Part shown: piece after piece, positions 2,866-62,144 of the stretch
Layout: the number at the start of each line of letters is the position of its first letter
How positions within the stretch are numbered: position 1 is the first letter of the stretch
Source: Rhyzopertha dominica
Lineage: Eukaryota > Arthropoda > Insecta > Coleoptera > Bostrichidae
Length of the DNA: 64,000 nt
Reading direction: 5' to 3'
Assembly (NCBI GenBank): GCA_025024175.1
Contig: QCXZ01000003.1
Span: 57,306,023 to 57,370,022, forward strand
Position numbers and translations under genes: made by a program
Notes under the pieces: model-generated
Told to the model about the DNA's origin: nothing
Seen by the model: only the letters and a program-made list of their open reading frames with translations
Database searches by the model: none

Positions 2866-3079
2866 AATAGAAGTATAGGGTAAGAATTTAGGATGGCAAT
2901 GCCATCTGTCAGAATTACACTGACATGATGACAAAGCCACCTAGCTGCCTTAACGGGAACTACTTCCTAAAGGAAGTGACCTGTAGCCTGACAAATTGGC
3001 ATGCAACTGCATACTTCAATTTGACAGCAGGCCCCCATGGCACTTTTTGCTAACGGGCAAGAACCAACATACATTAAAA

Positions 3080-3148
3080 TGCATGTCTATGCTGTGCTGT
3101 CTACACCTCAACCAACTGCAGATATTACTATTTAGCTGTCATTACAAA
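3080..3148 (-). ncRNA. Degraded antisense hammerhead half
   Basis: Read on the minus strand, this is the 3' two-thirds of the same ribozyme: stem II, stem III, TGCAGTTGG and TGTAGACAGCACAGCATAG. The first G of GAAA has become T, giving TAAA, and the CTGATGA strand is missing because the snap-back junction falls at 3148/3149. It should be inactive on its own. It could base-pair extensively with the sense ribozyme just downstream. Confidence 0.75.
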
Positions 3149-3154
3149 ACCAGT

Positions 3155-3260
3155 TCTATGCCGTGTTGTCTACATTAGACCTAAACTGCACTGATGAGCT
3201 GTAATGACAGCGAAATAGTACTATCTGCAGTTGGTTGAGGTGTAGACAGGACAGCATAGA
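3155..3260 (+). ncRNA. Type I hammerhead ribozyme, intact core
   Basis: The conserved core is complete: CTGATGA at 3191-3197, stem II GCTG/CAGC closing a TAATGA loop, then GAAA. Stem III is the self-complementary ATAGTACTAT, followed by C3225. Predicted cleavage lies between 3225 and 3226 (ATC triplet). Stem I is bipartite: AACTGCA pairs with TGCAGTT next to the core, then an asymmetric internal loop, then TGTCTACA pairs with TGTAGACA, with CTATGC/GCATAG further out. The internal loop faces the stem II loop, as expected for the tertiary contact of fast natural hammerheads. Stem I is the open stem, so this is type I, the arrangement reported in Penelope-like elements and animal retrozymes. Activity is not shown here. 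Confidence 0.88.
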
Positions 3261-3289
3261 CATGCATTTTAATAGAAGTATAGTGTGTT

Positions 3290-8303: not shown

Positions 8304-9427
8304 AATGTAAAAGTATGTACACTTATTATCAAATTTAGTATTTATTGGGATTTACTTGTAACCTCATATCAAATACACCCTTCAGCGGGAAGCTATTTTT
8401 TCTCAAAGCGATAGTGTGAGGGATTTTCAAGATACAACCGTTCCGTACCCATATTGAATCACCCTGTATGGATGTCCATTGTTACTTTCAGGAAATAAAG
8501 CTACTCAGAGTGATATCAAATTCATTAACAATGAAAGCACTTTAAAAAATTTGACCTGCACGATTTCTAAGGTTAAAAGACTTGTAATAATTTTATTTGT
8601 ATCGCAGCTACTTTCCATGCTATTGTATACACTGGTATTGCATTGATCTGCGGAACTAATTATTCAATTTTATTTTCAGGCGCTTAAGGATTGCGGAATC
8701 AGCATGACGCCTGCTTGCTACTACTGAGGTGAGACACCTTACACAAAGTGTATGCTTATTTTTTGAACGATTTGAGGTGAAGAAGCAATGTCAAGTAGCA
8801 TTAGATGAACCCCCGTTGCGACCATTACAAGTTGTTAATATACCGGCATCGCATGGAGTTATAGCTATAAATCCATAATTACACTGCTGTTAAATTAAAC
8901 TTATAGAATTCTCAGGTAGCAATGCTGAAATGCATTAGTGGAACGTTTCAATGGCGTAGGTCCATTAACTCGGATAATTGCTTAAAATACTGGGCGGTGA
9001 TTGTCAGTGTAAATTAGCGATTTCCTCCTGGTAAGATCGTTGACGGTATACGTTTTTTTTTTAACTTGTTAAGCACTTGTTGCTTGCCTTTTTATTACTG
9101 TTTGCATATTCGGTGAAACATTGTAACATACATATCCTTACTTTTTTGCGTTGCTTTATTGTCAGCATGAATAATAACTATGCAATAATTTTAAATTACA
9201 AATGAATAAAAAAATATATATTTATTTTTTAAGAAAAATTGTTTGGTATACTAGAAAATGTTTCGATTCCACATTTGAAATATCTAAAGCCGGAAACGGA
9301 GAAAAAACTTTTGTTAGTAGAAATATGACAAATAGCAGATAAATTTGAAATATTTTTATAGAAAATTTGGAGAAAGCTTTTCGTGATTGTATTGCATGCT
9401 GGATGTTTTTCCTTGTTTATTGTCAAG
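8304..9427. other. No recognisable feature
   Basis: AT-rich sequence with a poly-T run near 9053-9062. I see nothing coding. Confidence 0.5.
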
Positions 9428-9496
9428 GCCAATACGTTTTCATTTCATCTTATGCCTGCAAAACCCAATAAAATATCACATATGATCATTCATAAA
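9428..9496 (+). repeat. SINE-tail-like repeat fragment
   Basis: GCCAATACGTTTTCATTTC followed by TCTTATGCCTG and an AATAAAATATCAC segment. It closely resembles the sequence directly downstream of the tRNA-Thr-like head at 34682-34753. Its end is also shared with 32069-32100. I read it as a 5'-truncated copy of a tRNA-headed SINE. Confidence 0.45.
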
Positions 9497-10859: not shown

Positions 10860-11475
10860 AACGTCTTCTTTACTAAAAGCTAATTTTGTAATGGGTGTAG
10901 ATAGCATCCCGGCGTTCTGTATTCGAGACTGCATAACATGTTTGGCTGATCCACTAGTGAATTTGTACGACTTAATCTTAAAAAAAAACATATTTATCCC
11001 AGTGCTTACTGTTTACAAGTCGCGTCCCAAAGAAAACGTGTTACTAATTACATACCAGTTGCAATCGAAGTTAATTTTGCTAAAATATTTGGGAACATTG
11101 TAGCATCAAAAATTTATAACCATATTGCACCAACAATTATTGATAATCAACACGGCTTTGTCAGGAACACGTCAACCTGTACTAACTTATGCAGCTTTAC
11201 CCAGAAGATTTCAGCATTTTTAGATGAAAACGTTCAAGTAGATGTTATAAACACAGATTTTACAAAAGCATTCGACAAGGTAAATCATAAAATCCTGCTG
11301 CACAAACTAGCAAGTTTTGGCATAAATAACAACCTGATAAATATTTTAAGGTCCATGTTATCTAATCGTTCGCAATTTGTGGAATATAAGAATTCAAAAT
11401 CGGTCACCTTTCCTGTTAACAGTGGGGTTGCCAAGGGTCCAATTTAGGGCCTTTACTGTTCATTATTGGCTAATA
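10860..11475 (+). pseudogene. Non-LTR retrotransposon RT fragment (Jockey/CR1-like)
   Basis: Two plus-strand frames together give the finger and palm start of a LINE reverse transcriptase. 10891-11000 reads GVDSIPAFCIRDC and LADPLVNLYDLILKK, the usual pre-RT block. 11100-11455 reads ASKIYNHIAP, QHGFVRNTSTCTN, then DVINTDFTKAFDKVNHKIL with the first catalytic aspartate, and SGVAKG where intact elements have SGVPQG. A frameshift near 11020-11100 separates the halves. The fragment stops just after a GPLLF-like block at about 11460, so the second catalytic DD block is absent. It is inactive and truncated at both ends. The clade assignment is approximate. Confidence 0.75.
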
Positions 11476-13514: not shown

Positions 13515-14660
13515 GTATTTTCTAGGGCTGGACAAAGTACCTTTAGCGGTATATTGTATAGATACCACCTTGTCGTGGTATTCAAGTATTCAAAAGTATC
13601 GAAAATACTCAAAAGTATCGAAATATCGAAGGTATTCAACCAAAATATTAAATGGACTGTAAATATCGAAGCATTAATATCGGCTGGGCGGATTATCAAT
13701 ATTTACTGAACATATGGCTACCTTTACCCGTATCGAGTATTACAATATTTTAAAGTATGAGAATCAAAATATAGGCGGTGTTGAATGTAATGAAAATAAT
13801 AAAATATGAAGCAATACAAATTTGGAAGAGTATTACGTTTCAAAAAAATAGAAGCGTCCAAAATATTGACAGGATCAAAGATATTGAAGGTATCGAAATA
13901 TCTGATTAACTTAAAGTATAAGAAGAGTCGAAATTATTGCAGAATTCAGTGGTATTAGTGGTATCAAAGGTATTGAAAGTATCAAAATATCGAATTAATT
14001 TAAAGTATGAGCAGTATCTAAAGTTGTGCAAGAAAAAAGCGCTCTCTTTCGGTAGCGGCATAAACGGATCCGTTCCAGTCGTGGCTCAGGGGATTTTTTG
14101 CGCTAAATACAATAATCTAGTGTTATTGCAATAATTTAACCATTCATACCAGTGGCGGCTGATGAGGGAGGCCTGCGGAGCGCCGCCCTCCCTACGCAAA
14201 TGACCAGGTACATCAAATTGAATTAAATTAAAACATTTATTTACATTTACATCTAATGTTCTAATATACATATTGTTGGTTATTACCCATAGGTATTTAA
14301 TTTACAATCTTATATAGATTTGCGTTCAGCGCCTGCACTGCGGGAACCCGCAAGCCATCTGGATGCACTTGCCTGTCGGCTACCGGGCGGGCTGATTCCT
14401 GAAAGCCCAAATCGTTTCGATGCCCATGTAATTCTGTGGCCAATGCGATGGAAATGGCACGCGTCGACACGCGATTCTAATTAAGTGGAATTTCGGGCTT
14501 AGTTTGTTCAGCCCGAGACACGAGCGCGCATTCCTGCAAATAATACACCCGAACTAAGCGGTTATTAAGCAAAAAGCACCTGTTTTTTTTTGTGGAAAAT
14601 TGTGTTCAAGACAAACTATGAGGGTGTGTGATTTAATTAAATTAAACTTCAGTTCTCTGA

Positions 14661-14920
14661 AAGTAAGAATTTAGGATGGCATGTCAGGCTACAGGTCACT
14701 TCCTTTAGGAAGTAGTTCCCGTTAAGGCAGCTAGGTGGCTTTGTCATCATGTCAGTGTAATGCTGACAGATGGCATTGCCATCCTAAATTCTTACTTTCA
14801 TCATACCATTGCTTTAGTATATAAGCAAAACCAGTTCTCTGCACTGATGAGCTGTAATGACAGCGAAATAGTACTATCTGCAGTTGGTTGAGGTGTAGAC
14901 AGCACAGCATAGACAAGCAT
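14661..14920 (+). mobile_element. Hammerhead-ribozyme element, solitary copy B, with 13-bp TSD
   Basis: A 260-bp element flanked by perfect TTCAGTTCTCTGA at 14648-14660 and 14921-14933. The first about 20 bp are an inverted snap-back of the body (AAGTAAGAATTTAGGATGGC), matching TGCCATCCTAAATTCTTAC at about 14775-14795. The rest is sense: TGTCAGGCTACAGG body, then the ribozyme. The 5' strand of ribozyme stem I is deleted relative to copies A and C. It lies inside the inner hAT-like element and so is the youngest of the three nested insertions. Confidence 0.85.
14839..14884 (+). ncRNA. Hammerhead ribozyme with shortened stem I
   Basis: CTGATGA at 14844-14850, stem II GCTG/CAGC, GAAA and palindromic stem III are intact. 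Predicted cleavage is after C14878. The distal stem I strand and internal loop on the 5' side are deleted, leaving only about five pairs (CTGCA/TGCAG). The catalytic core is therefore present, but the tertiary contact that speeds natural hammerheads is probably lost. Confidence 0.75.
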
Positions 14921-15517
14921 TTCAGTTCTCTGAGTTTGGCGGACACAATAAACATTAAGGAAAAAAAAACGCCCTGTGCCTGCATTAAATTTAAATCAAG
15001 TGCAATCCAGTTACCAAAAATCGAAAACGATTTACCAGAAAGTTTGATGTAAATGTTGTTATGCGCGGATGGGAAGAGACAAATGCGTTTTTTTTTTGTT
15101 TTGTTTCTTTATTGTTTGGTGGCGATGATAACTGGACATTTCTAAGAAACAAAAGAAAAGTATTTAAAATAGGAATATTTTTTGTATTATCCAATCAGCG
15201 CCCCCCAGATAAAAATGCCACCAGCCGCCACTGATTCATACCAACTTTGATACTTTAGGTACTTTCGATACTTCCATACTTTGGATTCTTCGATACTTCT
15301 GATGCTTTAGGTACTTTCGATATTTCGATACTTTAGATACTTTCAATACTTTTGAGTAGTATCGATACTGCACCGTTATCGAATATCGATACCTGTTTTA
15401 TGCTATCGCCCAACCCTAGTCTTTTCTCGTCAGATTAATCGTATTATACTCAATGCACACTAACCGTCGATTCATGAAATTGTCAACATGAGGTAAATTC
15501 TAGGCACTATTGCAAAC

Positions 15518-16268: not shown

Positions 16269-17684
16269 GGATGTTTCACGAATGATAATGACCCTGACGA
16301 AATTAAAAATGCAACCCAAAATATATTTGCAGAGGTAACATTGATAATTGTTAATTGTCTTAAAAAATATAAAACGTAGAGAGCTGTATAAATTCGTAAA
16401 GTTTGACATAAACTTTAATCATTTGCTTTAAGTAAATTCGGTATTGTAAAACAAATTTTATTTTCGAAAAATGTTTCTTCAATAACATCAATGTAATAAA
16501 TGCTCAAAATCTCGCTCTCCGCTGTTTTCACAAGCTTGAATTCGTGCCCAAAACGAACTTTTTTTTAACATGCATTAACATTTCTGGAATGATGGATCTA
16601 CATGCATCACGTATTTTATTTTCTAAATGTTCTACACTTTCAATTGGTGTTTGGTATACTTGATGTTTTACCATTCCCCACAAAAAAAAAATCCAAAGGA
16701 GTAAGGTCTGGGCTTCTCGGTGGTCAAGGATTAATTGAACCTCTTCCTATCCATCGGTTAGGCAAAACCAAATCAAGATGATTTCGCACTATTCTATGAA
16801 AATGCGCAGGTGCCCCATCTTGTTGGAACCATAGATCATGTCTTACTTGTAAATTTACATTTTGGACAAGTACCGGTAAAATGTTTCTTAAAGAATTTAG
16901 ATAAGTATTGCCGTTTAAGCTATCGCGAAAAAAATAAGGCCCAACAATTTGATTCCCCAATATTCCGCACCAGACATTCGTCGAGTAGATAGTTTGAAAA
17001 TGTCCTTCTCGAATCCAACGTATATTTTCTTGCGCATAATAATGCATTATTAGAAAATCTTACTTCATCTGAGAAGCAAATGTCATAAAATCTCACATTC
17101 AAATTTTGGTGTTCTCGAAAAAAGTTACAAAAAGCCTGTCTTTTAAAATAATCTGTATCCTTTAAAGCCTGAACCAATTGCAAGTGATACGGATGAAATT
17201 GATTGCCTTTAATTATTCGGTGTCCTGAAGGCAGACTAGTACCCTTGAGACTACCCTTTGACTAATATGAGGATTTTCGTCAATCATTTCCAATACTCTA
17301 ATTTCATTGTCAGGGCTTGTTGCTGTTCTTTCTCTTGATTTTTTCATTGGTGCCCAGTTTGTCCTTAAAGTTAATTCAAATCTCTTGAAAATTGCATCGG
17401 CATTAGCTCTTCTATTTGGAAAACGTTGTCTGTATAAACGGGCAGCAGCGGAAGCATTTTTCTTGCATTCACCATAAATCAAAATCATGTCTGTTTTTTC
17501 ATCATTTGAATACATTTTGACTTTTAATAAATACAGTGACAGCAACCATAGCTTTTAGCCGTCATGGATTCCCAATTTATTTTTAAAATAATACCATTAT
17601 GTAAAATAACCACATTGGCTATGAGAATGTATTTTGAGTTGCATTTTTAATTTCGTCAGGGTCATTGTCGTTCGCGAAACATCC
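16269..17684 (-). mobile_element. Mariner-family DNA transposon with 55-bp TIRs
   Basis: The terminal inverted repeats are 16269-16323 and 17630-17684, each beginning GGATGTTTC from the outside and differing at only a few positions. The length is 1416 bp, about right for a full-length element of this family. It carries a single decayed transposase on the minus strand. The expected TA duplication is not unambiguous at the boundaries. It is the best preserved DNA transposon in the window, but inactive because of frameshifts. Confidence 0.85.
16560..17545 (-). pseudogene. Mariner-type transposase (DUF4817-like HTH + DDE), frameshifted
   Basis: On the minus strand the N-terminus (17513-17260) reads MYSNDEKTDMILIYGECKKN then ARLYRQRFPNRR, the helix-turn-helix block of a widespread insect transposase family. 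Next come PHISQRVVSRVL, then LVQALKDTDYFKRQAFCNFF (about 17180-17120). The first catalytic Asp block is ICFSDEVRF. NVWCGILGNQIVGPYF and LWFQQDGAPAHFHR contain the second Asp. NRWIGRG, then a stop in place of the usual residue, and PPRSPDLTPLDFF contain the third acidic region. At least two frameshifts, an indel in a poly-T run and in-frame stops disable it. All motifs occur in family order. Confidence 0.85.
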
Positions 17685-22913: not shown

Positions 22914-22960
<47 letters not shown>

Positions 22961-22987
22961 CAACAAAAACAACAACAACAACAACAA
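22914..22987. repeat. Compound (AAT)n/(AAC)n microsatellite
   Basis: About 14 AAT-type triplets followed by AAC/ACA triplets, ending directly at the first hammerhead unit. Either it is the target into which the array inserted, or it was generated by the insertion. Confidence 0.9.
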
Positions 22988-23088
22988 TGGCTTTGTCATC
23001 GTGTCAGTTCATTGCTAACAGATGGCATTGCCATCTATTTTTTTACTAACATCATACCAAACCTTTGGTATAGAGACAAAACCAGTTT

Positions 23089-23165
23089 TATGCCATACTG
23101 TCTGCATTACTACAATCATGAGCTGTAATGACAGCTGGTTGCAGTGCAGGCAGCATAGCAAAGAC
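23089..23165 (+). ncRNA. Hammerhead ribozyme, deleted core (unit 1)
   Basis: Stem I strands CTGTCTGCA and TGCAGGCAG and stem II GCTG/CAGC survive. CTGATGA has become ATCATGA and the GAAA-stem III-cleavage segment is deleted. It should not cleave. Confidence 0.7.
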
Positions 23166-23408
23166 ATGCATTTTTATGTATGTCGGTTCTTGCCCGTCAG
23201 GAAGAAGTGGCGTGGGGGCCTGCTATCAGGTTGATATATGCAGGTGCATGCCAACTTGTCAGACTACAGGCCACTTCCTTTAGGAAGTAGTACCCCTTAA
23301 GGCAGCTAGGTGCTGTAATCGTGTCAGTTCATTGCTGACAGATGACATTGCCATCTATTTTTCCACTAACATCATACCAAACCTTTGGTATATAGGCAAA
23401 ACGAGTTT

Positions 23409-23510
23409 TATGCCATACTGTCTGCATTAGACCTAATCTACACTGACGAGCTGTAATGACAGCGAAATGTATATATCTGTAGCTGATTGCAGTGCAGACA
23501 GCATAGCATA
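23409..23510 (+). ncRNA. Type I hammerhead ribozyme, complete core (unit 2)
   Basis: CTGACGA (position 7 is freely variable), stem II GCTG/CAGC, GAAA and stem III ATGTATATAT, with predicted cleavage after C23477. Stem I has CTACA/TGTAG next to the core and CTGTCTGCA/TGCAGACAG distally, with TATGC/GCATA outermost. The proximal and distal helices differ in sequence from copy A yet stay paired, as expected if folding was selected before the copy died. Confidence 0.8.
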
Positions 23511-23978
23511 GACATGCTTTTTATGTATGTTGGTTTTATCCGTCAGCAAAAAGGGCCGTGGGCGCCTGCTGTCAGGTTGATGTATGTAGTTGCATGCCAT
23601 CTTGTCAGATTACTGGTCTCTCCCTTTAGATAGTAGTACTTATTAAGGCAGCTAGGTGGCTTTGTCATCGTGTAGTTCGTTACTGAGAGATGGCAGTGCC
23701 AGCTATTTTTCTACTAAGATCACTAATGTTTTTTATAACTTTGGACTCTCTCCTTCAAAGTTTCAGTTTGCTTTACAGCCTCCTTGGGCGTTTAATTAAA
23801 TATTTAGTGGATATCCTTTCCTACCATCTCACTAATATAAATTTAAGCTAGGAAGCAATGCTGCCGAAATATCAAGAAAGCAGTTGAGCCGTTTATGAAA
23901 ATTTGGAAAGACAAGAACGTGTGGGTCGTAAAGAACATTTAAGAGACGGCATTTTCAAACTAAGGTAACTTCAATTAA

Positions 23979-24188
23979 GTAGCTTGAAAACGAGCTCATT
24001 GTTTTGAACGTACGTGCCTTGTCTCACTAGTTTTATCAGATAACTCTGACGAGCTTTCAACCTAAACGATATAACGCTGTTATCTCTTTGATACTGACCC
24101 TTTAGGTCGAAACGATCGTCAGTTATCTTATAAATCTAGTGAGACAAAGCATATCACGTTCAAAACAAATAGCTTGTTTCCAAGCTAC
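23979..24188. repeat. PLE-like inverted repeat with GGTCGAAACGATCGTC motif
   Basis: Arms of about 75 bp (from GTAGCTTGAAAACGAGCT at 23979 and its partner ending CAAGCTAC at 24188) share TTGTTTTGAACGT and TTGTCTCACTAG. The inner part at 24087-24120 reads TTTGATACTGACC, a short loop, GGTCGAAACGATCGTC. The same sequence family ends the decayed PLE at 46.8 kb, which supports assignment to PLE terminal repeats. Confidence 0.55.
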
Positions 24189-25860
24189 ATAACTGATTCA
24201 GAATGTTTCACAATGAATGCACCTTTGGAACCATTAAACATAGGCTAACTTCATTTTCAAAAAGCTTATGGGTTTTGATATTGTTGCCAAGAAGTGATAA
24301 ATGGGTTTTCCATGATCTAGCGAATGCTACAAAATCTACATCTGCACGTTGGCTTGCAGATACCTAAGAGACGAAAATTGTTTGAATAGGAAACAAATCA
24401 TGCTGTCAGTCTAGCAAAGTTCATTAAGAATTTTTTCATTCAGATTTTTTTTTTAATTCTGGAGACATTACTGCTGCTTACAACTATTGCTTTTATTAAT
24501 GAATGAGTTTAGGTATAGAATAACCAAATCTTGTAAAATAATATGAACAAACTGGTGTCCTGTTAGCAGAGGCGTGTGGATGCCGATGGTTTTGAGATTG
24601 TATTATATATTTTTTTGAAATTTAAAATAAATGTAATTTTTCCTGGACTAACTGACATTTGAACGTTATGAAACAATCTGTATTTATACTTCCTTACGTA
24701 CTTTTGTTACACACATTTCAGAGTACATTTTAACCATAATTATTACTTTTGAAAACAAAGACTTTGTTCTTAAATAGAACGGTAAGCATGAATTATTTAT
24801 CTGGAAGCTTCGGATTGATTACGTATTACTAATGTCAAATAGCATTTAGTTTAAAATAGCTGTTATATTTTGATCACTGATGTTTGTGTTACTTCAGATA
24901 TCGTTTTTTATATTTTATACATTATGAGTTACATTTTATTAGTATTAATTGGAACTTTATTAATATAGGCACAGACCCAGTTGTTCGTGATTTATCCAAA
25001 TAGTGTATGAGATAACATTCACGACACCGACGGTAACATACGACCGAAAGCATAGCCGCAGGTGTTCGCTTTAAAATTTCGTCTTATCCGACATTTGATC
25101 ATTAATATTATAGGGGGTGATTAAAGCACGTATAAACAGAGGTGCTTGTGCCAACGTTGACAAAACAGCGTTCCTACATTTGTATTCACAAAAGCGCGCA
25201 CATATACGCGAATACCCTTTGTGCCAAAAGCAGTGGAGTGTGTATTTAGAAGGCTTTGAAANAGCACAAAGCTTTTTCGTCTCTGTCAACAGTGAGCCAT
25301 TGGTGGTTTCGGCCACTTATTCGTAGCTTTGTACGTCGACATGAACGGTTTCCTTTCTAGGTATCTGACGGACGTATACGCTGATATAGGAACGCAGATA
25401 TTTGCATTTAAGCAATAAGGGTAAAATGCAACTTTTGGTATTGCTAGTGCCGTTTTGTCAAAGAGCAAAGAAAAAGAAAAGAGTGCACTTCTACTGCATA
25501 TAAACATTAATTTGAATTTTCATGCTTATTAAAGACATTTGTTATTTCTTTACTTACTGCTTAAATTGGTCTACATTAAGAAGATTTAGTAATCAGTGAA
25601 AAAGCTTCAATAAATGTATTCACTTAACTTTTGCATTACCTGGACAGGCACCATCAAGAACCATTATTATGTTTCTGATGTGACGTATCCAGAATCCAAA
25701 TTTTCAGAAAGATAAAAGCTCGAAACTGAAGGATACGGTATTGGTAATATTGTACTAGGCGTCTTTTTAGACGCTTGATTTATTTTCACAAAACTCTTAA
25801 CTCCGTAACATTAATATAATTGCGCTTCTGTTTTACGCGAACTATTTGATTTATTGTTAT
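24189..25860. other. No recognisable gene
   Basis: AT-rich. Overlapping open frames on both strands at 25071-25507 are under 85 codons, include an ambiguous base at 25262, and have no family motif. Confidence 0.5.
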
Positions 25861-34681: not shown

Positions 34682-34753
34682 GCCCTGTTAGCTCAATGAT
34701 AGAGCGTTTGACTAGTATTCAACACGTCCCGAGTTCAAATCTCGGTCAAGGCT
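34682..34753 (+). tRNA. tRNA-Thr(AGT)-like sequence, probably pseudogene or SINE head
   Basis: It folds as a cloverleaf. D-arm AGCTCAATGATAGAGC; anticodon stem TTTGA/TCAAC with seven-base loop CTAGTAT (anticodon AGT at 34714-34716); five-base variable region; T-arm CCGAG-TTCAAAT-CTCGG, with B-box GTTCAAATC. The acceptor stem has two mismatches (positions 4-69 and 7-66) and the anticodon stem has one U-C. The following 45 bases resemble the repeat at 9428-9496, which points to a tRNA-headed SINE rather than a working tRNA gene. Confidence 0.55.
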
Positions 34754-34800
34754 GGCAATACTTTTTCATTTCTTCTTATGCCTGTTAACCCATTAAAATA
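34754..34800 (+). repeat. SINE body following the tRNA-like head
   Basis: GGCAATACTTTTTCATTTC then TTCTTATGCCTGTTAACCC parallels 9427-9465. Together with the tRNA-like head this gives a head-plus-body SINE structure. Confidence 0.45.
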
Positions 34801-36592: not shown

Positions 36593-36609
36593 TATTATTA
36601 TGAACGTAA

Positions 36610-36770
36610 GTATGAATTTTAGATGGCAATGCCATCTGTCAGCATTACACTGACATGATGACAAAACCACCTAGCTGCCTTAACGGGTACTACTTCCTAA
36701 AGGCAGCTAGGTGGCTTTGTCATCATGTCAGTGTAATGCTGACAGATGGCATTGCCATCTAAATTCATAC
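36610..36770. repeat. 71-bp near-perfect hairpin inside copy C
   Basis: Arms 36610-36681 and 36700-36770 pair with an extra T and one substitution, around ACGGGTACTACTTCCTA. Each arm also contains the smaller palindrome GATGGCAATGCCATC. Confidence 0.9.
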
Positions 36771-36810
36771 TTGCATCATACCATTGCTTTGGTATATACG
36801 CAAAAATCAG

Positions 36811-36918
36811 GTCTATGCAGTGCTGTCTGCACTAGACCTAAACTGCACTGATGAGCTATAATAATATCGAAATAGATCTATCTGCAGTTGGCTGCAGTGC
36901 AGACAGCACAGCATAGAC
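36811..36918 (+). ncRNA. Type I hammerhead ribozyme, stem II weakened
   Basis: CTGATGA at 36848-36854, GAAA and palindromic stem III ATAGATCTAT, with predicted cleavage after C36882. Stem I is very long: AACTGCA/TGCAGTT near the core and GTGCTGTCTGCAC/GTGCAGACAGCAC distally, then CTATGC/GCATAG. The distal helix differs from copy A by a paired change (TGTCTACA/TGTAGACA to TGTCTGCA/TGCAGACA). Stem II has decayed to GCTA...TATC with a mismatch, so activity may be reduced. Confidence 0.82.
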
Positions 36919-36939
36919 ATGCATTTTATTATTATGAAC

Positions 36940-41700: not shown

Positions 41701-41755
41701 AATTATATGTCGAATGCTTTAAAATGTGCACTTGTTGGGAACCATTTTGAATCAT
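38712..41755. other. No recognisable gene
   Basis: AT-rich with a GC-moderate zone at 39100-39850. A CGCTAGAGGGTGC-like motif (40199) recurs in inverted form at 43294, but no element boundaries could be drawn. Confidence 0.45.
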
Positions 41756-41930
41756 TTAAATAGGTTGTAAACAAGTCGATTGTTTCATTGTGTTTAGTTT
41801 CACTCTTTTTATTAGGTAGCTCTGAAGATCGCTTCGACCTAACGGTAATTTTCAAACAGCGTCAAAACTATACTGAACTTAGATGTGTAGAATTTTACCC
41901 ACGTCTCTTATTTTTACGGGGTATGTAAAG
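41756..41930 (-). repeat. PLE-like terminal repeat copy
   Basis: It matches 46800-46990 over about 110 bp, including TTTAGTTTCA, CGACC-AACGGTAATTTTCAA and TATACTGAACTTAGAT. On the minus strand it gives TTGAAAATTACCGTTAGG followed by TCGAAGCG, a decayed version of the YTGA-stem-GAAAC motif. Adjacent coding sequence is not recognised. Confidence 0.5.
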
Positions 41931-44900: not shown

Positions 44901-45384
44901 TAGTTAACAGGTTCACGTTAAATAATTACCCCTGCTAATGTAATATCCGTTCGCTATTTGACAAACACAAACACGAGTCAAAAGTCCGCATGCCAAACTC
45001 GTTTGCAGCGGGTGCACCTCCGGTGTACACTTTCCATACATGTTTGCGGATCATTAACTCAACGTTTAGGTTGTATTTACAGGGTAGCCCGCCTAAGTGA
45101 TATAAATTAGGAGATGTTTTCCTCCACATTTTACTGTTTGCGTAATTAAATTTATTAATATATATAGAGTCTTGGTCAACCTAGTAAGATCGATAAAGGC
45201 TATAGGACGGTTTCTTTTCTCTTTGTTAAAGTTGATGTTAGCTAAAATTAACGCTTTAACCATGGCAATACCTTAAATTGAGGTTTGTGATTGGTTTAGA
45301 TTTAAAAAACAGGGTTGATTTTAACTTGAAATAAAGAAGAGAAACCGGTCCTTTGACTATATTTGTATAGTAATGACAATTAAA
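41931..45384. other. No recognisable gene
   Basis: Very AT-rich, with A/T-run rich sequence at 42370-42800 of the kind seen in transposon interiors. CAGTGGCGGCGGTTCC in reverse orientation ends at 43560 and looks like a hAT terminus. Confidence 0.45.
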
Positions 45385-46432
45385 CTTCATATATGTAGGA
45401 AGATAGAGAGAGGGGTACCCCAGGGGTCAATAATGGGGCCAATGCTTTTTATGATATACATAAACGACTTGCACAAATGCAACGACGAATTAATTGTTCA
45501 ATTTGCAGACGATACGTCAGTTATAATAAACATGAGAAACGAAAATGAAATTTCTCCAAGAACCGAAAACTGTCTGAACGGTATTGAAATGGCTACAAAA
45601 CAACCTTATCCTAAATGTAGCAAAAACAAATTTAGTGAACTTTGCATCTTCTCCGAAATTTCTACAGTCTACAGCTATCAAATATAAAGAAAATGTACTT
45701 ACCGTCCAAAAGAGCGCTGTCTTCCTGGGAATAAGAATAGACGGTCTTCTCGACTGGAAAACACACATTAACTATTTAACTTCTAAAATAGCACCGTTTG
45801 CTTACGCGCTTCGAAATATAGGTGGTGCAGTGGGTGTGGAGGCGGCAAAAATTTCATACTTTGCTTACGTGCACTCACGTTTACGATATGGAGTGATTTT
45901 TTGGGGAAACTCAACAGCCGCAAAAGATCTGTTCCTAATACAAAAGCGCTGCATTAGAGGGATATTCGGCCTAAAACAAAAGGACAGCTGCAAAAAATGG
46001 TTTATAAACTCGAAGATACTTACCTTACCCAGCATTTACATATTAGAATGTGTCCTGTTTGTTAAAAACAATTATGAACTGTTTTTTTTTATGTCAAACG
46101 AGATATCACACACACACAATACAAGAGGACGTGCAAGCAAATATTTGTCTGCTACATGCACGAAACTTACACAAGTGGACAAAAATGCAACTCACAATCT
46201 GATCAGGATATACAATCATGTTCCGCGACAAATAAAAGAACTGTCGATGCAGCACTACAAGAAAGCCATGAAAGACTATTTAAGACGCCACGCGTTCTAC
46301 ACAATAGAAGAGTTTTTAAAGTGTAATGTTAGTGTCTAGTACTATTTATACTATTATTGGACGTATTCAATGTACAGTATGTGTTAATGTGCAATATTGA
46401 ATAAATATATATTATATTATTATTATTATACA
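45385..46432 (+). pseudogene. 5'-truncated LINE, RT palm to 3' end
   Basis: It starts at RKIERGVPQGSIMGPMLF (45400-45450), followed by YINDL and FADDTSVII with the catalytic DD. A frameshift near 45590 moves the frame. 45584-46339 then reads KWLQNNLILNVAKTNLVNF, FLGIRID, LDWKTHINYLTSKI, HSRLRYGVIFWGNS, IQKRCIRGIFG, DSCKKWF and a C-terminal FYTIEEFL, ending at a stop at 46339. These are thumb and C-terminal motifs of insect non-LTR retrotransposons (Jockey/CR1 group). Polyadenylation-like AATAAA and a (TATT)n tail end at about 46432, the natural 3' end. 5' truncation is usual for LINE insertions. The 251-codon open frame is intact, but the protein as a whole cannot be functional. Confidence 0.85.
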
Positions 46433-46799: not shown

Positions 46800-47910
46800 G
46801 AACATTAATTAGGTAGATAGCTTGGAAACAAACTGCTTATTCGAATGTGCTTAGTTTCATGACTTCTATAAGATACCGTGACAATCGTTTCGACCACATA
46901 ACGGTCATTTTCAAGGAGCATTAAAGCTATACTGAGCTTAGATATTCAAAATTTTGTCCATGTCCCTTATTTCACAGAGGTAAAAATCACTGGCCTGGGT
47001 TTGAAGGTCGACTTTATAATTTCGATAGTACAAAAAGTGTACTGGATGTGGGAACTTCTGTTTGCTTATTTGCAAAATATTGTTTTCACAATATTGTACT
47101 TTTTAATTTCCAAAAGGTTTAGTTTTTACTTCTTTTCGCAGTTTATGACTGATGTCCTTTTGATCTCAGCAATTACTATTTTTTATAATTTATTGTATAT
47201 TGAGAATGCTTTACGTATTTTTAATTCTTATGCAATGGTCAGAAAAGCCAGTTGTGCCTTCTTTTGAGTATATACTTACAACTAATTCTTTAATCCTATT
47301 GTAATAGCTCTACCTGGTTCTCCCTTGCATACAATATTACATTGCGTGCATTTTAGTAAATACCACTTTTGTCTAACGTATTGGGTTTTGGCCTGTTAAC
47401 TAAAAATCCCCCCCATTTTTAACGAAAGCGCTTTTGATATAATTTACTGTGGCTAAAATGTAAGCTTTTATGCTAGCATTTTATATCATTGTTTGTATTC
47501 TAGCTTTATTTTGTTTTTTAACTATTCGGCAACAGTTTTTGTATCGCATCCATCACTGTTGAATACAAAATGCTTAATTTGTAATGATTTATTTGAACAT
47601 GCCGGTATTATCACATGTGAGTACCTATATCGGTTTTCTATAAATTTCAAATTGTCCTTTACCGATATAGTCCATAAAATTAAGAAAGAACTCAATTTTT
47701 CCTATAACGTAAACTTCATATTTTTATTTAGTGCATTTAAGGATTTAATAATACACCCAACTGCATGATAGTTCAAGTCTAAATACAAAAAAAATATGTC
47801 ATCAACATATTTGGTCCAGAATAGGTAATAGATTCTTCATAAATTTACAAACTACTTAATTATTCAGTACGTTTCGCAATGAGTTCATCTTTGAAACCAT
47901 TTAACTTATT
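46800..47910 (-). mobile_element. Decayed Penelope-like element
   Basis: Reading the minus strand: RT at 47830-47480, GIY-YIG-like zinc/cysteine segment at about 47390-47300, spacer, then a terminal repeat (46990-46800) with TTGAAAATGACCGTTATGTG followed by GTCGAAACG. The order RT, endonuclease, terminal repeat is that of Penelope-like elements. The terminal repeat is shared with 41756-41930 and with the hairpin at 23979-24188. All frames are broken. Confidence 0.65.
47300..47830 (-). pseudogene. Penelope-like RT and GIY-YIG remnant
   Basis: Minus strand at 47811-47790 gives WTKYVDDIFFVF, the YVDD catalytic loop in the Penelope-style context FW-x-YVDD. Downstream are LNALNKNMKFTL, then in shifting frames IYRKP and HVIIPACSNKSLQIKH, the usual Penelope continuation after the catalytic loop. 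Further on, LLKCTQCNIVCKGEPGRA resembles the C-x2-C and YIG-x-TGR start of the endonuclease with the YIG lost. Multiple frameshifts. Confidence 0.65.
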
Positions 47911-50022
47911 TTAATCGTTAACAACAACACTCGTATCAATATAATAAGGAAAGCTTGCTTATGGACTCATACTATTTATGTATTATTATATAGGTAGCTT
48001 GTTTATGAGGGTTGGTATTGCAACTCTACCTACGTATTTATCTAACTGATCAAGTAGGCCGGGGATGGCTTTTGTCGTCATGAACTTACGTCATAGTGGT
48101 GGTGCAACAAACCAAACTGTCACTTGTGTTGATTGTCAAGCAGGCGATGTTATGCGCCGTTGCGGTTATCTGCAGAAGATTTCTCAATTTGTAAACATTT
48201 TCGCAGATTCGACGGTGACTGTATTAATGGCAAGTAACAGTAATAGCGTCTTACTTTAACCAATGCAATAAACCACGAATACGTCAAACGGGTCAAACGC
48301 CAAACATGCATTAAGTTATACGAACTAATTTTACACAGCTGTAGAAAGAGAAAACCATAGCTAGCTTGACCCGTTTTTTTATGAAACGTCCGTTACACTG
48401 TTTCTTAAGCGCAGACTGTGAAATTGCTTGTATAACACCATTGTCAATAAATATTGATAAAAATCAAGTCTTGGAGGCCATTTTTGCGATTCGTTAAACA
48501 AAACTTCTATCTGTAACTAAACGTTTAATCAGTTTTCGGTTTAATACAAACTTCGACCTGTATTTAATATTAAAACTAAGCGTCCATGCAGGTACAAAAC
48601 TAAGTAATATTGTTGGATATGCTCACAAAAAAGCACACTAAAGTATAATATAAAAACGCACATAAACCTGTGCTGTTGGAATACAGTACGTAAGAGTTTT
48701 AAACGTTTCTGTTGTATTAAATATAGTTGAATAAATAAGACGAGAAATTTTATCAATTCGCCCATCGGTCTTAAATGAAATATCAAGGAGATGAGATACC
48801 CAGAGAAGAAATGTAGCCGCTTCTGTAATTTTCTCATTTATCTTCTGCTATACCCTATTATTATAAGCTACTTACAAAGAAAAACATTTAAAATTACAAT
48901 TTAATTTATACAGGCCACCTATTATTTCAATCTCCCATCATTTTACACAAGAAAATAACTTTTTATTGCACGGGCATTTTAAGTACGTGAGCGGAATAAA
49001 ATTGAGAAGGTATGCAGTGACCAAGTTTTAATTCGTCCTGAGCCCCTAGATCTGATAAGGCCGTACCCCGTTGCACAAACTGTGTAAGGAAATTAGTTTC
49101 CAACTTTCCTAGTTTCCATTCTATGATGAAGTTTCCGTTCTAATTAGCCTTTTTATCATGCATAAGTAAAGTAACGTGCGCTTGAATAGTGGCGCAATTT
49201 GTTTTCTAACTGATGGTGAATTGTCATGTTTTATAGGTATTTGTTGCACATTTTCATCTTCATCTTTTGATTCATGTTTTATGTTTCTTTTATTGTTTTA
49301 ACCTTCCAAAATGCTACTTGTTTCAGATGAAATTAACGAACTTATTTAGGAACAAACGAATTAACTTTTTACATATTTTTATTGGCGTAGTTTGTGAGGT
49401 CGTCAATAATGCAAATAATTGCAATATACGTTTCTGTGCTATTTAGTTTCTTGTTTTCTAATTTTGACGGTATCTTTTTGGACAACATCGTTAGCACACT
49501 GTGTTGAAAAATTTCACGGAATCTAATTGACTACCATGCTGCATCTAGTATAAGCAATAGACGATTAGAGCTTCTTTACTCTGGTTTTTATGTCCTGGGT
49601 CCATCATGAGGTCTTTAAGTAAAGCCCAACACAATTCATTTAGGTATAGGAACGGATTCCCCGTCCCAAACAACTTGCGTATTAACTGACTTTTGTATCT
49701 TTTGTAACCGTTCTACCGCTTGGTATGTATGTGAATTCGATGTTGTGGTAAACTTATGTGATCTCAATACAGCTTTGCCATGTTAAAACATTTTTTGTTA
49801 ACAAAATTGATTCTTGAACTATTTGCTATAGTTTTATGGCCTGAATATATTTTCATTATTCATCGATTGACTTACTTGCCTGTCATTACTTCATTTGGTT
49901 TCATTATCAACTCAAATGATGCCATTCCGCAGTAATAGGTATTTTCCGGAATTTAAATTGAGAGTGGATTTAAATATTTTTTTTATATAAGGCGATGTAG
50001 TAGTAGCTGTCCGAAATTATAC
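47911..50022. other. No recognisable gene
   Basis: AT-rich. Open frames at 48065-48259 and 48837-48541 have no family motif. Confidence 0.45.
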
Positions 50023-50462
50023 ACTGACTTTGATTACGAGGGTTAATGCTTTCAGCGTCCATAATATAAGATCGTTGTCGTTTTAAAACACTGAAAAAAA
50101 GGTTATTGGTCTGACGTTTCGATTACACTTGCAATCTTTGTCAAAGATGAAGAACCTTAAAATTCGTCTGACACAAGATCAAACAAAATTTTGAAAGTAA
50201 ATAACAAATCACCAAGGAAGCGAGACGTGATTGAAACAACGTGCCAACCTGATAAAATATGAACCTAACGACGAAAAAGGAGCTACCTACCCACTAGATA
50301 TACACGAACTACTTGATAAAAGAAAACTACAAAATAGCCTTCCAAATACGAGGGTGGATGCTTTCAGCGTCCATAATATAAGATAATATTTTGTCGGATA
50401 GATCGCTGTCTCTTGAAAACACTGACAAAAAGTTAATAGTCTGACGTTTCGATTACATATAA

Positions 50463-50826
50463 TAATTTAGATAAAATTTTAAGTTCTACTAAAGATAAAG
50501 TACATTTAGAGAGTGAAAGTTTTTAAAAAATTACTTGTTCTTGCGGAAAGTGTTACATAGGTCAAACTAAAAGAAAAGTAGGTACGCGTTTGAAAGCACA
50601 CATACGTGCTACCAGGTTGCAACAGATAGATAAATCTTCCGTAGCTGAACACTCATATTTGACTAAACACATGATTGATTTTGATAAAACAAAAATTTTA
50701 CATAGAGAAAAATATTATCACAAACGTCTAATAAAAGAAGCTATAGAAATTTTTAGGAATACTAATAATTTTAATAGGGATTGTGGAAATTATGAGTTAG
50801 GGGACATTTGGAAGGCTATTTTGTAG
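50463..50826 (+). pseudogene. GIY-YIG endonuclease domain of a PLE (copy 1)
   Basis: Translation gives KITCSCGKCYIGQTKRKVG, then TRLKAHIR with the conserved Arg, SSVAEHSYLTKH and RLIKEAIEI with the likely catalytic Glu, ending GDIWKAIL-stop at 50826. This is the C-terminal endonuclease of Penelope-like retroelements, which nicks the target to prime reverse transcription. A stop at about 50528 replaces the Tyr of the expected GVYKI, as shown by copy 2, so the GIY half is damaged. The YIG, Arg, His and Glu positions remain. RT is absent. Confidence 0.85.
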
Positions 50827-51164
50827 TTATCTTTTATCAAGTAGTTCGTCTATATCTAGTAGGTAGGTAGTTCCTTTTTCATCGTTAGGTTCCTTTTTTA
50901 TCAGGTTGGCACGTTGTTTCTATGACGTCTCGCATCCTTGGTGATTTGTTTATTTACTTTCAAAATTTTGTTTGAACTTGTGTCAAGCAAGTTTTTGAGG
51001 TTCTTCGTCTTTGACAAAGATTACAGGTGTAATCGAAACGTCAGACTATTAACTTTTTGTCAGTGTTTTCGAGAGACAGCCTTCCAAATGTCTCCTAACT
51101 CATAATTTCCACAATCTCTATTAACATTATTAGTATTCCTACAAATTTCTATAGCATCTTTTAT

Positions 51165-51510
51165 TAGATAAAATTTTAAGTTCTACTAAAGATAAAATAC
51201 ATTTAGAGAGTGAAGGTGTTTACAAGATTACTTGTTCTTGCGCCGAGTATTACATAGGTCAAAGAAAGAAAAGTAGGTACGCGTTTGAAAAAACACATAC
51301 GTGATACTAGGCTGCAACAGATAGATAAATCTTCCGTAGCTGAACACTCATATTTGACTAANCACATGATTGACTTCGATAAAACAAAAATACATAGAGA
51401 AAAAGATTATCACAAACGTCTAATAAAATAAGCTATAGAAATTTCTAGGAATACTAATAATTTTAATAGCGATTGTGGTAATTATGTGTTACTGACATTT
51501 GGAAGGCTAT
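51165..51510 (+). pseudogene. GIY-YIG endonuclease domain of a PLE (copy 2), frameshifted
   Basis: It begins ILSSTKDKIHLESEGVYKIT with an intact GVYKI, then CSCAEYYIGQ. A deletion then shifts the frame, so the remaining conserved sequence (SSVAEHSYLTKH region, KEAIEI region, one ambiguous base at 51361) continues in other frames. It is about 90% identical to copy 1 at the DNA level by eye. Confidence 0.8.
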
Positions 51511-58679: not shown

Positions 58680-60107
58680 TGTGACGCCTTTTTCGTTGAG
58701 CGGCGGAACGGGCCTTCGGAACGGAGGGCGGACGGTCGGACGGTTACGTAATGAGCGGCACGGTAGTGACGTAAGCACTAAGCTAGGCGTCAAAACGGTT
58801 TCTCGGGCGCCAGTTTTTTATTATACTGAGGTATGCTCCTCAGATTCCTGTGCACTACCCCCCTTAGCACACAGACCAGGGCAGCTACAGTGGAGACCGG
58901 CACTCCAGGGAACAACCCTCGAGGGTGAATGCCGTAAGCTGAAAGAAAGGTGTTACCGGGGTGCGGTGGTGCTGAGCAGAAAGAAAAACCAACAAGAACC
59001 TATAAACACAGTTTATTACTTTTCAACAATAATTTATTACACATGCAACAAAGGCGTCTATACTAAATTATGTAACGGCCCCCCTCACCTGCGGTGCCTA
59101 GCCAAGGAAAATTACGGTTATGCAATACGGTGATATGAAAACGGTCTACGGTTATTACGGTTACGGTACAAGTAACGGTGCGGTGGTTGTGAAGAAAAAG
59201 CGGTGCAAGCGGTAACCAAACTGAGTGAGCGTGTTATATCTGGTGACGCAGGTGGGTTATGTTCTCAGACAGGGTTATGTGTTGGTTGGCGGAGTAGGTG
59301 AGGAACGGACGGAGGCGTAACAGTCTACAGTCGATGTCGGGTGTCGGTAATAACGGTTGGTGACGTAAGAAAGCCGTTCACGAGGTATGGGCCGCCTACA
59401 AACCTAGCATGCGGCAAACACCAAGTGGACAACTCTCCCTGTCTGCCACGGGCGAACCGCCTACAAATCTAGCATGTGGCGCACCCACAACAGACGGTCC
59501 CCTTAGTCGGTGTCAGTAAAGAACGGTGGATGACGTAAGAAAGCTATTCANGAGGTACGGGCCGCCTACAAACCTAGCATGCGGCAAATACCAAGCGGAC
59601 AGCTCTCCCTGTCTGCCACGGGCGAACCGCCTACAAATCTAGCATGCGGCGCACCCACAACAGACGGTCTCCACGNTCGGGGTCGGTTGGTGACGTAAGA
59701 AAATTACTCACGAGGTACGAGCCGCCTACAAATCTAGTATGCGGCAAATACCAAGCGGGCAATTCTCCCTGTCTACTGCGAGCGAACCGCTTACAAAGCA
59801 AGTATGCAGCACGCTCCACAGTCGGTGAGGGTGGGATATCAGGGATCGGTTATAGATAGGAAGGCCACCACAATACAAGTGCTAAGCCTAGAGCTCACTC
59901 ACCTGGTCTCTCGTTGATATACACCACAACACGGCGTGCCGAGAACTGACTGAACACGGAAAACCGGCATGCTTTATCCGCGACAGTCGGACTGATTAGC
60001 GGGAGAATTTGATGGCAGATGTTCTCAGTGCCACCTACGCGGGCTTTTAGTGAAAAGACGGACGCGGATCGAAACTTGGCTGAGGCCAGGTTTGTAACTT
60101 CGTTACA
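58680..60107. repeat. GC-rich repeat block with TGACGTAA-bearing tandem units
   Basis: A GC-rich island between AT-rich flanks. It contains three tandem units beginning TGACGTAAGAAA at 59361, 59531 and 59691 (periods 170 and 160 bp). Each is built from two related halves, CCGCCTACAAACCTAGCATG and CCGCCTACAAATCTAGCATG. The part from 59071 to 60107 starts TGTAACGG and ends CGTTACA, as an LTR might, but 4- or 5-bp flanks do not match. The 176-codon frame at 58603-59133 spans AT-rich and GC-rich parts, resembles nothing and is not accepted as a gene. Possibly a promoter-bearing terminal region of a retroelement. Confidence 0.6.
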
Positions 60108-60779: not shown

Positions 60780-60809
60780 ACAACTGGGTTTATATTTTGT
60801 CAAACCATT

Positions 60810-60939
60810 TCGATACTTCTATACTTTTAGACACATTCGATACGTCGATACTTTTGAATACTTTCGATACTTCGATACCACGGCAATATGGTATCGATAT
60901 TCGATACCGCCGTAGGTATCGATACTTTGCCCAGCCCTA
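60810..60939. mobile_element. Solo terminus of the TATCGA-rich hAT-like family
   Basis: Arrays of TTCGATACTT/GGTATCGATA end in TTGCCCAGCCCTA at 60939, the same end as the element at 13523-15418. The other end was not found, so this is a fragment. Confidence 0.55.
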
Positions 60940-60945
60940 GTTGAA

Positions 60946-62140
60946 ACTTGTAGTTTCTGATGTTTCCACAGAACGAGAACGAGAATTCATCCTTCTTATT
61001 ATGTTTCTCACAAAAGCTTTTCACCTTTTATTCTTTTTAAAATGACATCATGGCGCATAAAGGCACATAATATCAAGCGGACTTAATATTTTCCTTTAAC
61101 CGGAGGTCAACAATACTAAGTCACTTGTTACAGTTTACCCCCGACTTTGCTTGCGACACCAAATACATGAAAATCGAAAATTTGTGACGTCATACAGTTG
61201 ACCTCTGAGGTACAGATATGTAAAACTTGTGCATAATACAACAGTTATTTCCCCCCAAGACACATGACGAAAAGACATAAGCATGAGCATTCCAAATCAA
61301 CGAACCTATTTAAATAAAATGTATGTATCCGGTTAATATAACTGATTTGTAGCCTACGTGCGTAATAAATATAGCTTGCGGACTCCTTTAAATTGCCTTT
61401 TCGATGTATTAGAATCGACAGGTTTAATGTGCACGCAGTTTGATATCCAGCGCCAGCTTTCTGGGCTGTGTTAACTGATCGTCGCATTTTAAGCCCCACT
61501 GTCGCCTCATCAGTGTTAAACATGCGGTATTAATCATTAATTGCAACCTATATATTAAGTATTGCACTTTACACGCGTAATTATAACAGTTATGCATGAG
61601 CGACATATTCGTGCCGGACTACTCAATCAGATGAGCAATTAAAGGTGCGGAATGGCGTCTTCTGTCGCTGAGTTAATGATCTAGAACTGCGGTGCCAGTG
61701 GTAAGGGATCGAGCAACAAATCACTGGGAAACGATCGAATGGAGAGTTCCACTACTTACCTCTGCCGTGCCATAATAATTAATCGCGGAAGTACTGATGC
61801 ACTCTGTTTTGGAAAGCCGGCTGCCGACTACATATGTTATGCCTCGAGTTGTGTCAGCTAAATCCGTAATGTATTAATAGTGTTTTGTGCAATGGTGCTA
61901 GTTTAGAATCTAGTAATGCATAATATAGATAATTTATTGATATTGATGTGGTATATTAAACTTCTGGCATGCTTCAATTTGACGCAATTTGTTCAGCAAC
62001 ATATAAGGATTGCTGCAGCGGAGCTTTGCTAATTTTAACAAGAAGATTTTCTGAATAGCTTAGCTCAAGTACAATGAGGCAATACAGTGCATTCACGAAA
62101 AGGTAGTTTTTTTTAGTTGTAATTTAATAAATATATTTAA
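60946..62140. other. No recognisable gene
   Basis: Moderately AT-rich. A 92-codon minus-strand frame at 61523-61245 lacks family motifs. Confidence 0.45.
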
Positions 62141-62144
62141 TGTA

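Follow-up and report, generated by a model that had tools for sequence, protein, structure and literature searches.

The window analysed here, the whole 64-kb stretch of Rhyzopertha dominica DNA, is AT-rich (GC 0.353) and carries reverse transcriptase (RT) and THAP domains as well as a DUF4817 frame, a content that, with the GIY-YIG-like ORF described below, has an arthropod look. A noncoding repeat unit of approximately 352 bp, of which a putative hammerhead ribozyme is part, occurs in tandem at 22988-23722 and in dispersed form elsewhere in the window. The four loci are designated A to D. The tandem arrangement is found at one of the four (C), where only one hammerhead, C2, is intact.

Hammerhead motifs in the window

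3155..3260, + strand: putative hammerhead ribozyme A, core at 3191, predicted cleavage after 3225, full bipartite stem I
14827..14897, + strand: putative hammerhead ribozyme B, core at 14844, predicted cleavage after 14878, shortened stem I
23106..23149, + strand: decayed hammerhead in the first tandem unit of locus C, 3′ part of the core and cleavage site lost
23407..23515, + strand: putative hammerhead ribozyme C2, core at 23443, predicted cleavage after 23477
36812..36918, + strand: putative hammerhead ribozyme D, core at 36848, predicted cleavage after 36882, C·U mismatch in stem II

The core reads CTGATGA in A, B and D and CTGACGA in C2, and in all four copies it is followed downstream by GAAA, a 3-bp stem III and then ATC. 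A reading of this DNA from its letters alone (the sequence-only reading) had placed cores at these four loci, and the sequence is present where claimed, on the + strand in each case. It had described the cores as complete or near-complete, which holds for A, B and C2: these have CUGANGA, GAAA, a UH cleavage triplet and three stems, are open at stem I, and so have everything that defines type I. Copy D departs by a single stem II pair, the C·U mismatch being at the second pair, so that "complete" says slightly too much of this copy. That reading had also described a bipartite stem I containing an internal loop, and A, C2 and D have it; in B approximately 28 nt of the unit are lost at this place and a shorter distal helix is kept.

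A permissive scan of the window for CTGANGA...GAAA...TH returned 16 strings, consisting of the four cores and 12 unconvincing others. A strict type I descriptor, with at least 5 bp in stem I, at least 4 bp in stem II, at least 3 bp in stem III and G-U pairs allowed, gave three matches (3191 in A, 14844 in B and 23443 in C2) and no other on either strand of the window, and it gave 0 matches on both strands of 300 random order-1 Markov windows. No fifth locus was found within the window by blastn of the family stretches at E of 1e-3 or less. Searches with the core DNA in viral and prokaryotic contig collections gave 0 matches each, a result that says little, as records near the window were possibly omitted.

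At the gathering score, Rfam reported no hammerhead in the window, and the sole match was a tRNA. Among the sub-threshold matches at E of 10 or less, all four copies matched HH9 (RF02275; gathering score 52), with B at 32.8 bits (E 2.3e-4), A at 28.8 bits (E 0.0042), D at 23.1 bits (E 0.3) and C2 at 19.7 bits (E 3.7). The covariance-model check proposed in the sequence-only reading therefore yields matches, all of them under the gathering score. A stem III of only 3 bp and a long stem I probably keep the Rfam scores low. In amniotes, HH9 is a conserved ribozyme. A covariance model trained on the four copies recovered them among 15 rows, with additional matches of good E value to the inverted half of A (29.3 bits) and to the decayed first unit of C (19.3 bits); the remaining 9 of the 15 had E values of 0.23-9.7.

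Copy B (14827-14897), with its shortened stem I, is the best HH9 match in the family, and the compact ribozyme may for that reason be a natural variant.

One further Rfam match, to Hammerhead_1 at 24040-24126 (25.6 bits, E 0.064, gathering score 34), was rejected as a chance product of inverted repeats. It sits in a palindromic foldback repeat of which three other partial copies are known, and in the copies that cover that part (41706-41859 and 46801-46918) CTGANGA and GAAA are not both present in hammerhead order, as judged by eye. The foldback family (23971-24196, 41706-41859, 46801-46918 and 47844-47908) has inverted repeats that mimic half a hammerhead.

Folding and covariation

With the hammerhead enforced, the folding energies were -42.1 kcal/mol for A, -12.5 kcal/mol for B, -29.4 kcal/mol for C2 and -43.3 kcal/mol for D, compared with free minima of -45.8, -16.2, -31.9 and -49.4 kcal/mol, respectively. 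Unconstrained folding favours a different core in all four copies, by 2.5-6.1 kcal/mol. Because the free minimum is unlike the hammerhead core in each copy, the fold is compatible with a ribozyme and is not proof of one. Relative to shuffled sequences, the stem I region showed strong pairing in A (z -6.5) and D (z -7.0) and less in C2 (z -2.6), and the fold of B was indistinguishable from its shuffles (z -0.37).

In the alignment of the four copies, 94.0% of 134 cells pair, and both sides have changed in 4 of the 38 pairs. Controls in which the structure was slid along the alignment gave 19-45% pairing and zero pairs with changes on both sides. The structure was derived from copy A, which biases the comparison with the slid versions in its favour, and the support from covariation is modest. 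The sequence-only reading had proposed a genomic repeat family with type I hammerheads; the cores at four loci bear this out, and self-cleavage is predicted from their sequence.

The repeat unit and the tandem locus

Unit positions are counted from the first base after the cleavage site, on a 352-nt reference that was assembled from pieces of A and B for use as a coordinate system. Since the reference was built partly from both arms of A, the identity of A to it, 99.3% for the inverted arm, is no evidence. The natural unit of locus C is 346 nt. Unit GC contents are 0.423 and 0.448, below 50%, and the longest stop-free run in the tripled unit is 67 codons, so that there is no long open reading frame (ORF). 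The reference circle is predicted to fold at -134.3 kcal/mol (z -8.3 against 200 shuffles) with eight apical loops, and the natural C unit at -110.0 kcal/mol.

22915..22987, no strand assigned: (ATA)n/(AAC)n simple repeat immediately to the left of locus C
22988..23722, + strand: locus C, head-to-tail units starting at unit 182, third copy extending to unit 227 by blastn and to approximately 245-249 by eye

On the right side of locus C, homology fades by eye near unit 245-249, which is about the second of the two outer ends described below. No target-site duplication was detected at the boundaries of this locus (the longest shared word is 5), and an inverted arm is absent. In shared stretches, C is 80-85% identical to A and D, and A and B are 97.6-99.1% identical to each other. 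The near-identity of A and B, together with their intact duplications, makes some insertions look recent. To judge by this identity, A and B may come from closely related source copies; they are separate insertions, because their hinges and targets differ.

Anatomy of the dispersed insertions

2866..2878, no strand assigned: left target-site duplication of locus A, AATAGAAGTATAG, identical to 3271-3283
2879..3144, - strand: inverted left arm of locus A, one extra base followed by a descending run from unit 241 past 1/352 to approximately 327 (2880-3146 by blastn)
3145..3270, + strand: direct right arm of locus A, from unit 272 across 352/1 to 45, hammerhead included; 2 nt in common at the hinge
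3271..3283, no strand assigned: right target-site duplication of locus A, identical to the left copy
14648..14660, no strand assigned: left target-site duplication of locus B, TTCAGTTCTCTGA, 13 bp exact
14661..14681, - strand: inverted left arm of locus B, unit 243 (246 including common bases) to 223; 24 of 24 identical from 14658
14682..14920, + strand: direct right arm of locus B, unit 128 through 352/1 to 42-44, approximately 28 nt of stem I missing
14921..14933, no strand assigned: right target-site duplication of locus B, 13 bp exact
36593..36605, no strand assigned: left target-site duplication of locus D, TATTATTATGAAC, 13 bp exact
36606..36702, - strand: inverted left arm of locus D, two extra bases, then unit 243 to approximately 148; 92.9% identity over 99 nt
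36703..36926, + strand: direct right arm of locus D, unit approximately 170 through 352/1 to 44-46; 90.0% identity over 230 nt
36927..36939, no strand assigned: right target-site duplication of locus D, 13 bp exact

Exact 13-bp target-site duplications bound three of the four loci (A, B and D); in a random control, 21 of 20,000 boundary pairs in the window had a duplication of at least 13. The inserts between the duplications are 392 bp (A), 260 bp (B) and 321 bp (D) long, and in each of them an inverted left arm is joined head-to-head to a direct right arm. The ~352-bp unit, its tandem copy, the 13-bp duplications, the fixed-end inverted left arms and the stem II mismatch of D all go beyond the sequence-only reading. 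Unit, cores, duplications, ends and hinges are read directly in the DNA.

The outer ends are fixed at all three loci that have duplications. On the right, the + strand copy ends at unit 45 in A, 42 in B and 44 in D, after which two or three further bases match the unit and the duplication alike. The inverted left arm ends at unit 241 in A and 243 in B and D; the end in B can also be read as unit 246, since duplication and unit have three bases in common there, and the left end carries one extra base in A and two in D. The inner ends vary. The inverted arm stops near unit 327 in A, at 223 in B and at 145-148 in D, and the direct arm starts at unit 272, 128 and 170, respectively, so that the hinge differs among the three insertions, with 2, 0 and 4 nucleotides in common. 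The hinge ends of B and the direct-arm starts were obtained by script, and the inverted-arm ends of A and D were taken from alignments. Fixed outer ends combined with a variable hinge suggest that synthesis starts at set places and stops at varying ones.

The cleavage point is crossed by all four arms that reach it (both arms of A and the direct arms of B and D), and locus C runs across it in two places, in the first of which the site itself has been lost. Because the arms and the tandem copy run through this point, the template would have been circular or multimeric and not a linear monomer cut by the ribozyme.

The two outer ends were located on the predicted folds. The first site (unit ~42-45) falls in the 4-nt apical loop of a predicted hairpin in both folded units. 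The second site (unit ~241-243) lies inside the longest unpaired run (233-254) of the predicted reference fold, and the same region is partly paired in the predicted fold of the natural C unit. Since approximately one quarter of all positions are equally unpaired, the argument from unpaired sites is weak and suggestive only.

By eye, each inverted arm ends close to the midpoint of a local palindrome, about 5 nt away at most (3124-3146, 14675-14681 and 36687-36703). These palindromes correspond to stem-loop II in A, unit 215-229 in B and unit 144-159 in D. The coincidence is weak, because the circle has eight apical loops and three cases are too few.

Relation to retrozymes and hammerhead satellites

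The element fits the published animal non-LTR retrozymes, a known kind of which it appears to be a new member. The two-ended insertion anatomy is the new part, and is called new because it was not found described in the literature searched. The sequence-only reading had pointed to retrozymes and Penelope-like elements (PLEs), and that pointer was right. We take Sm-alpha and newt sat2 to be type I hammerhead repeats like the present family. Together with pDo500 and the W elements they form long satellites, and are not twin-primed single insertions. By description, the cave-cricket satellite pDo500 of Dolichopoda, the Schistosoma W elements, Sm-alpha and newt sat2 resemble the present family in having repeat units with type I hammerheads, and a presumptive duplication is mentioned at one W element in the available text of PMC8490949.

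According to the available text of Cervera and de la Pena (2020; PMC7229834), the hosts of animal non-LTR retrozymes include insects, and the inserting enzyme and its mode have so far only been proposed, with PLEs as helpers being a strong candidate. The present element resembles those retrozymes, as far as that text describes them, in its type I hammerhead, its unit length (352/346 nt here, ~170-400 nt there), its tandem copies, a GC content below 50%, the lack of an ORF here, a predicted highly self-paired circle, and duplications, which exceed 4 bp when present and are 13 bp at three of the four loci here. What sets it apart is that its insertions are single and inverted and have both outer ends fixed; nowhere does the main text of PMC7229834 use the word "inverted". 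No account of inverted-arm retrozyme insertions was found in the open-access literature searched, including the accessible part of PMC11722881, and this absence is weak evidence, relevant papers lying outside that coverage.

Penelope-like elements and a possible helper

As described in the available text of PMC11167929, the purified protein of an Anolis PLE cuts and extends both target strands, and reverse transcription starts at two internal RNA sites downstream of the hammerhead, mostly in a stem-loop and alike for the two strands. Ribozyme mutants had no effect on insertion in vitro in that work, which indicates that insertion in that PLE system need not be coupled to cleavage. Rotifer Penelope copies, in the portion of PMC3846280 available, have direct and head-to-head inverted pLTRs, with palindromes where the inverted pLTRs meet. 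Several of these copies have 8-10-bp duplications and others have none, and the targets are preferentially of simple AT-rich sequence. The (ATA)n/(AAC)n repeat adjoining locus C was counted with this preference.

The insertions thus resemble PLE copies in several respects described in the available texts (PMC3846280, PMC11167929): an inverted head-to-head 5′ arm, hinge palindromes, target duplications, internal RT starts downstream of the hammerhead, extension of both strands, and AT-rich targets. An insertion product of the PLE type, with an inverted head-to-head arm, a duplication and internal fixed RT starts, is found at three of the four loci, and not at C. The element differs from PLEs in that its start sites are assigned to one strand each and lie ~198 nt apart, and are therefore not adjacent as in the described PLE. 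It also lacks the RT and GIY-YIG endonuclease ORF of an autonomous PLE; with a longest stop-free run of 67 codons, the unit is not a PLE, and is at most mobilised by one. PLE hammerheads are described as minimal in the available text of PMC7761336, whereas in the present ones stem III is 3 bp long and stem I is extended.

A possible trace of a helper lies in the window outside the element:

50527..50823, + strand: relic resembling the C-terminus of a Penelope-like GIY-YIG endonuclease

The relic ORF has five relatives, including sequences of Tenebrio molitor (49%) and Periplaneta americana (55%, UniRef name GIY-YIG domain-containing). It carries a CxCGKxYIGQT motif, which we take to link it to PLEs, and the family call was made from this motif evidence and the UniRef name of relative P0004. 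In Pfam the relic ORF had no GIY-YIG match at E of 1 or less, only DUF7675 (E 0.0024, below the cut-off). Of the relatives P0002, P0004 and P0005, only P0002 gave rows, TBPIP_C (E 0.062) and T5orf172 (E 0.076), both below the cut-off, and P0002 had no PDB match at E of 1 or less. Inspection by eye of all three forward frames across 48900-51200 revealed no RT beside the relic, and the stretches that carry the unit had no blastn match near it.

Proposed route of insertion and alternatives

To judge from the junctions, the anatomy of the three insertions looks like target-primed reverse transcription that was started from both strands of the target, at two internal positions of the RNA that are fixed. 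The explanation that we consider probable, with moderate confidence, is that of a non-LTR retrozyme family whose self-cut and circularised transcripts are inserted in trans by a Penelope-like RT/endonuclease. In the course of events that we infer, from cleavage and circles to the enzyme and the order of its steps, transcripts of tandem units would cut themselves at the hammerhead and then circularise, and a Penelope-like RT/endonuclease would act in trans on the retrozyme RNA. The target would be cut in a staggered manner with a 13-bp offset. The bottom-strand end would prime reverse transcription at unit ~42-45, in the loop of the hairpin adjoining stem I, and the top-strand end would do so at unit ~241-243 of an RNA of the same kind, in a stretch where little pairing is predicted. 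Each cDNA would extend toward the 5′ end of the RNA, some of them past the ribozyme cleavage point, and the two cDNAs would be joined via 0-4 common nucleotides. The resulting copy would be head-to-head, its outer ends fixed and its hinge variable. The circles are predicted, and an uncut multimer could also act as the template.

Several points stand against this explanation, which is drawn from three informative insertions within the 64-kb window. Locus C has neither an inverted arm nor a detectable duplication. The start sites, one per strand and ~198 nt apart, contrast with the adjacent sites without strand specificity in the described PLE, and a PLE with a matching pLTR was not found. The region of the second site is partly paired in the natural C unit, with a quarter or so of positions as unpaired as that site in the reference, and the reference is itself assembled from pieces of A and B.

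Mobilisation of the retrozyme by a LINE through ordinary L1-style twin priming, for example by the resident family that we take to be jockey-like, would also produce inverted insertions, and is unlikely. Duplications of approximately 13 bp and microhomology at the inversion hinge are typical of LINE twin priming, and the window contains LINE-like RT fragments (Pfam RVT_1 at 10950-11444 and 45325-45684). However, the inner cDNA start varies in L1-type twin priming and a 3′ poly-A or simple tail is left, whereas in the present insertions the second start stays within ~3-6 nt at all three loci and the 3′ end falls at an internal site and carries no tail. By analogy, PLE biochemistry and PLE copies appear to fit the insertions better than a LINE does.

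Self-priming, in which the first cDNA would fold back at a palindrome and copy itself, was proposed for head-to-head PLE copies with hinge palindromes in the available text of PMC3846280, and the arm stops near palindrome centres at all three loci would agree with it. We regard it as improbable. The inverted arm of A includes unit 46-241, which is missing from the direct arm and cannot be a copy of it, so that simple snap-back copying is excluded at A. Furthermore, the direct arm resumes away from the palindrome in B (128 versus 223) and D (170 versus 148), and the fixed outer end is left unexplained.

Constant outer ends around a variable interior could also come from a MITE-like DNA element with fixed ends that carried the hammerhead as a passenger, if A, B and D all descended from a single inverted parent by internal deletion. 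The outer ends are not inverted repeats of one another, however (5, 5 and 7 of 15 positions match in A, B and D, respectively), and we know of no common DNA-transposon superfamily that 13-bp duplications would fit. The extra or common bases at the left ends fit priming better, and the tandem locus C and the hammerhead unit fit an RNA intermediate, which makes this origin quite improbable. A decayed and currently immobile satellite with fossil hammerheads would accord with the broken first hammerhead of C, the mismatched stem II of D and the divergence of C from A and D, and is very improbable given the close identity of A and B and their intact duplications.

Insertion of the circularised retrozyme RNA by a Penelope-like enzyme can be extended to a broader proposal, which we put forward tentatively: animal retrozymes would be inserted by Penelope-like enzymes through dual-primed target-primed reverse transcription, each target end using its own fixed start site, ~198 nt from the other, on a hammerhead-processed circular RNA. 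If this is true, both start sites and the hinge are preserved in every new copy, the retrozyme life cycle gains the insertion step that it has lacked, and the inverted arms of PLEs are perhaps explained too. Fixed-end insertion junctions make the question of the enzyme testable from genome sequence alone. A small element without coding load would in addition conveniently serve as a natural substrate in studies of PLE biochemistry, a subject on which relatively little is known according to the available text of PMC11167929.

Other repeats in the window

A tandem array with a period of approximately 170 bp and 2.8 copies is located at 59340-59797, and short tandem arrays of similar 8-9-bp units (ACTTTCGAT-like) occur at two distant places, 15244-15369 and 60808-60878. 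Broken non-LTR RT-like frames are present at 10950-11444, 45325-46336 and 62064-63006, of which only 10950-11444 and 45325-45684 match Pfam RVT_1, the rest being recognised by eye. Broken transposase-like frames on the - strand at 16727-17554 look mariner-like by eye; one of them contains the DUF4817 helix-turn-helix, and this frame is presumably mariner-like. A tRNA-like sequence at 34682-34753 scores 50.5 bits with Rfam and was not called by ARAGORN. The stretch 34745-34800 recurs at 9422-9475, and is perhaps a tRNA-derived SINE.
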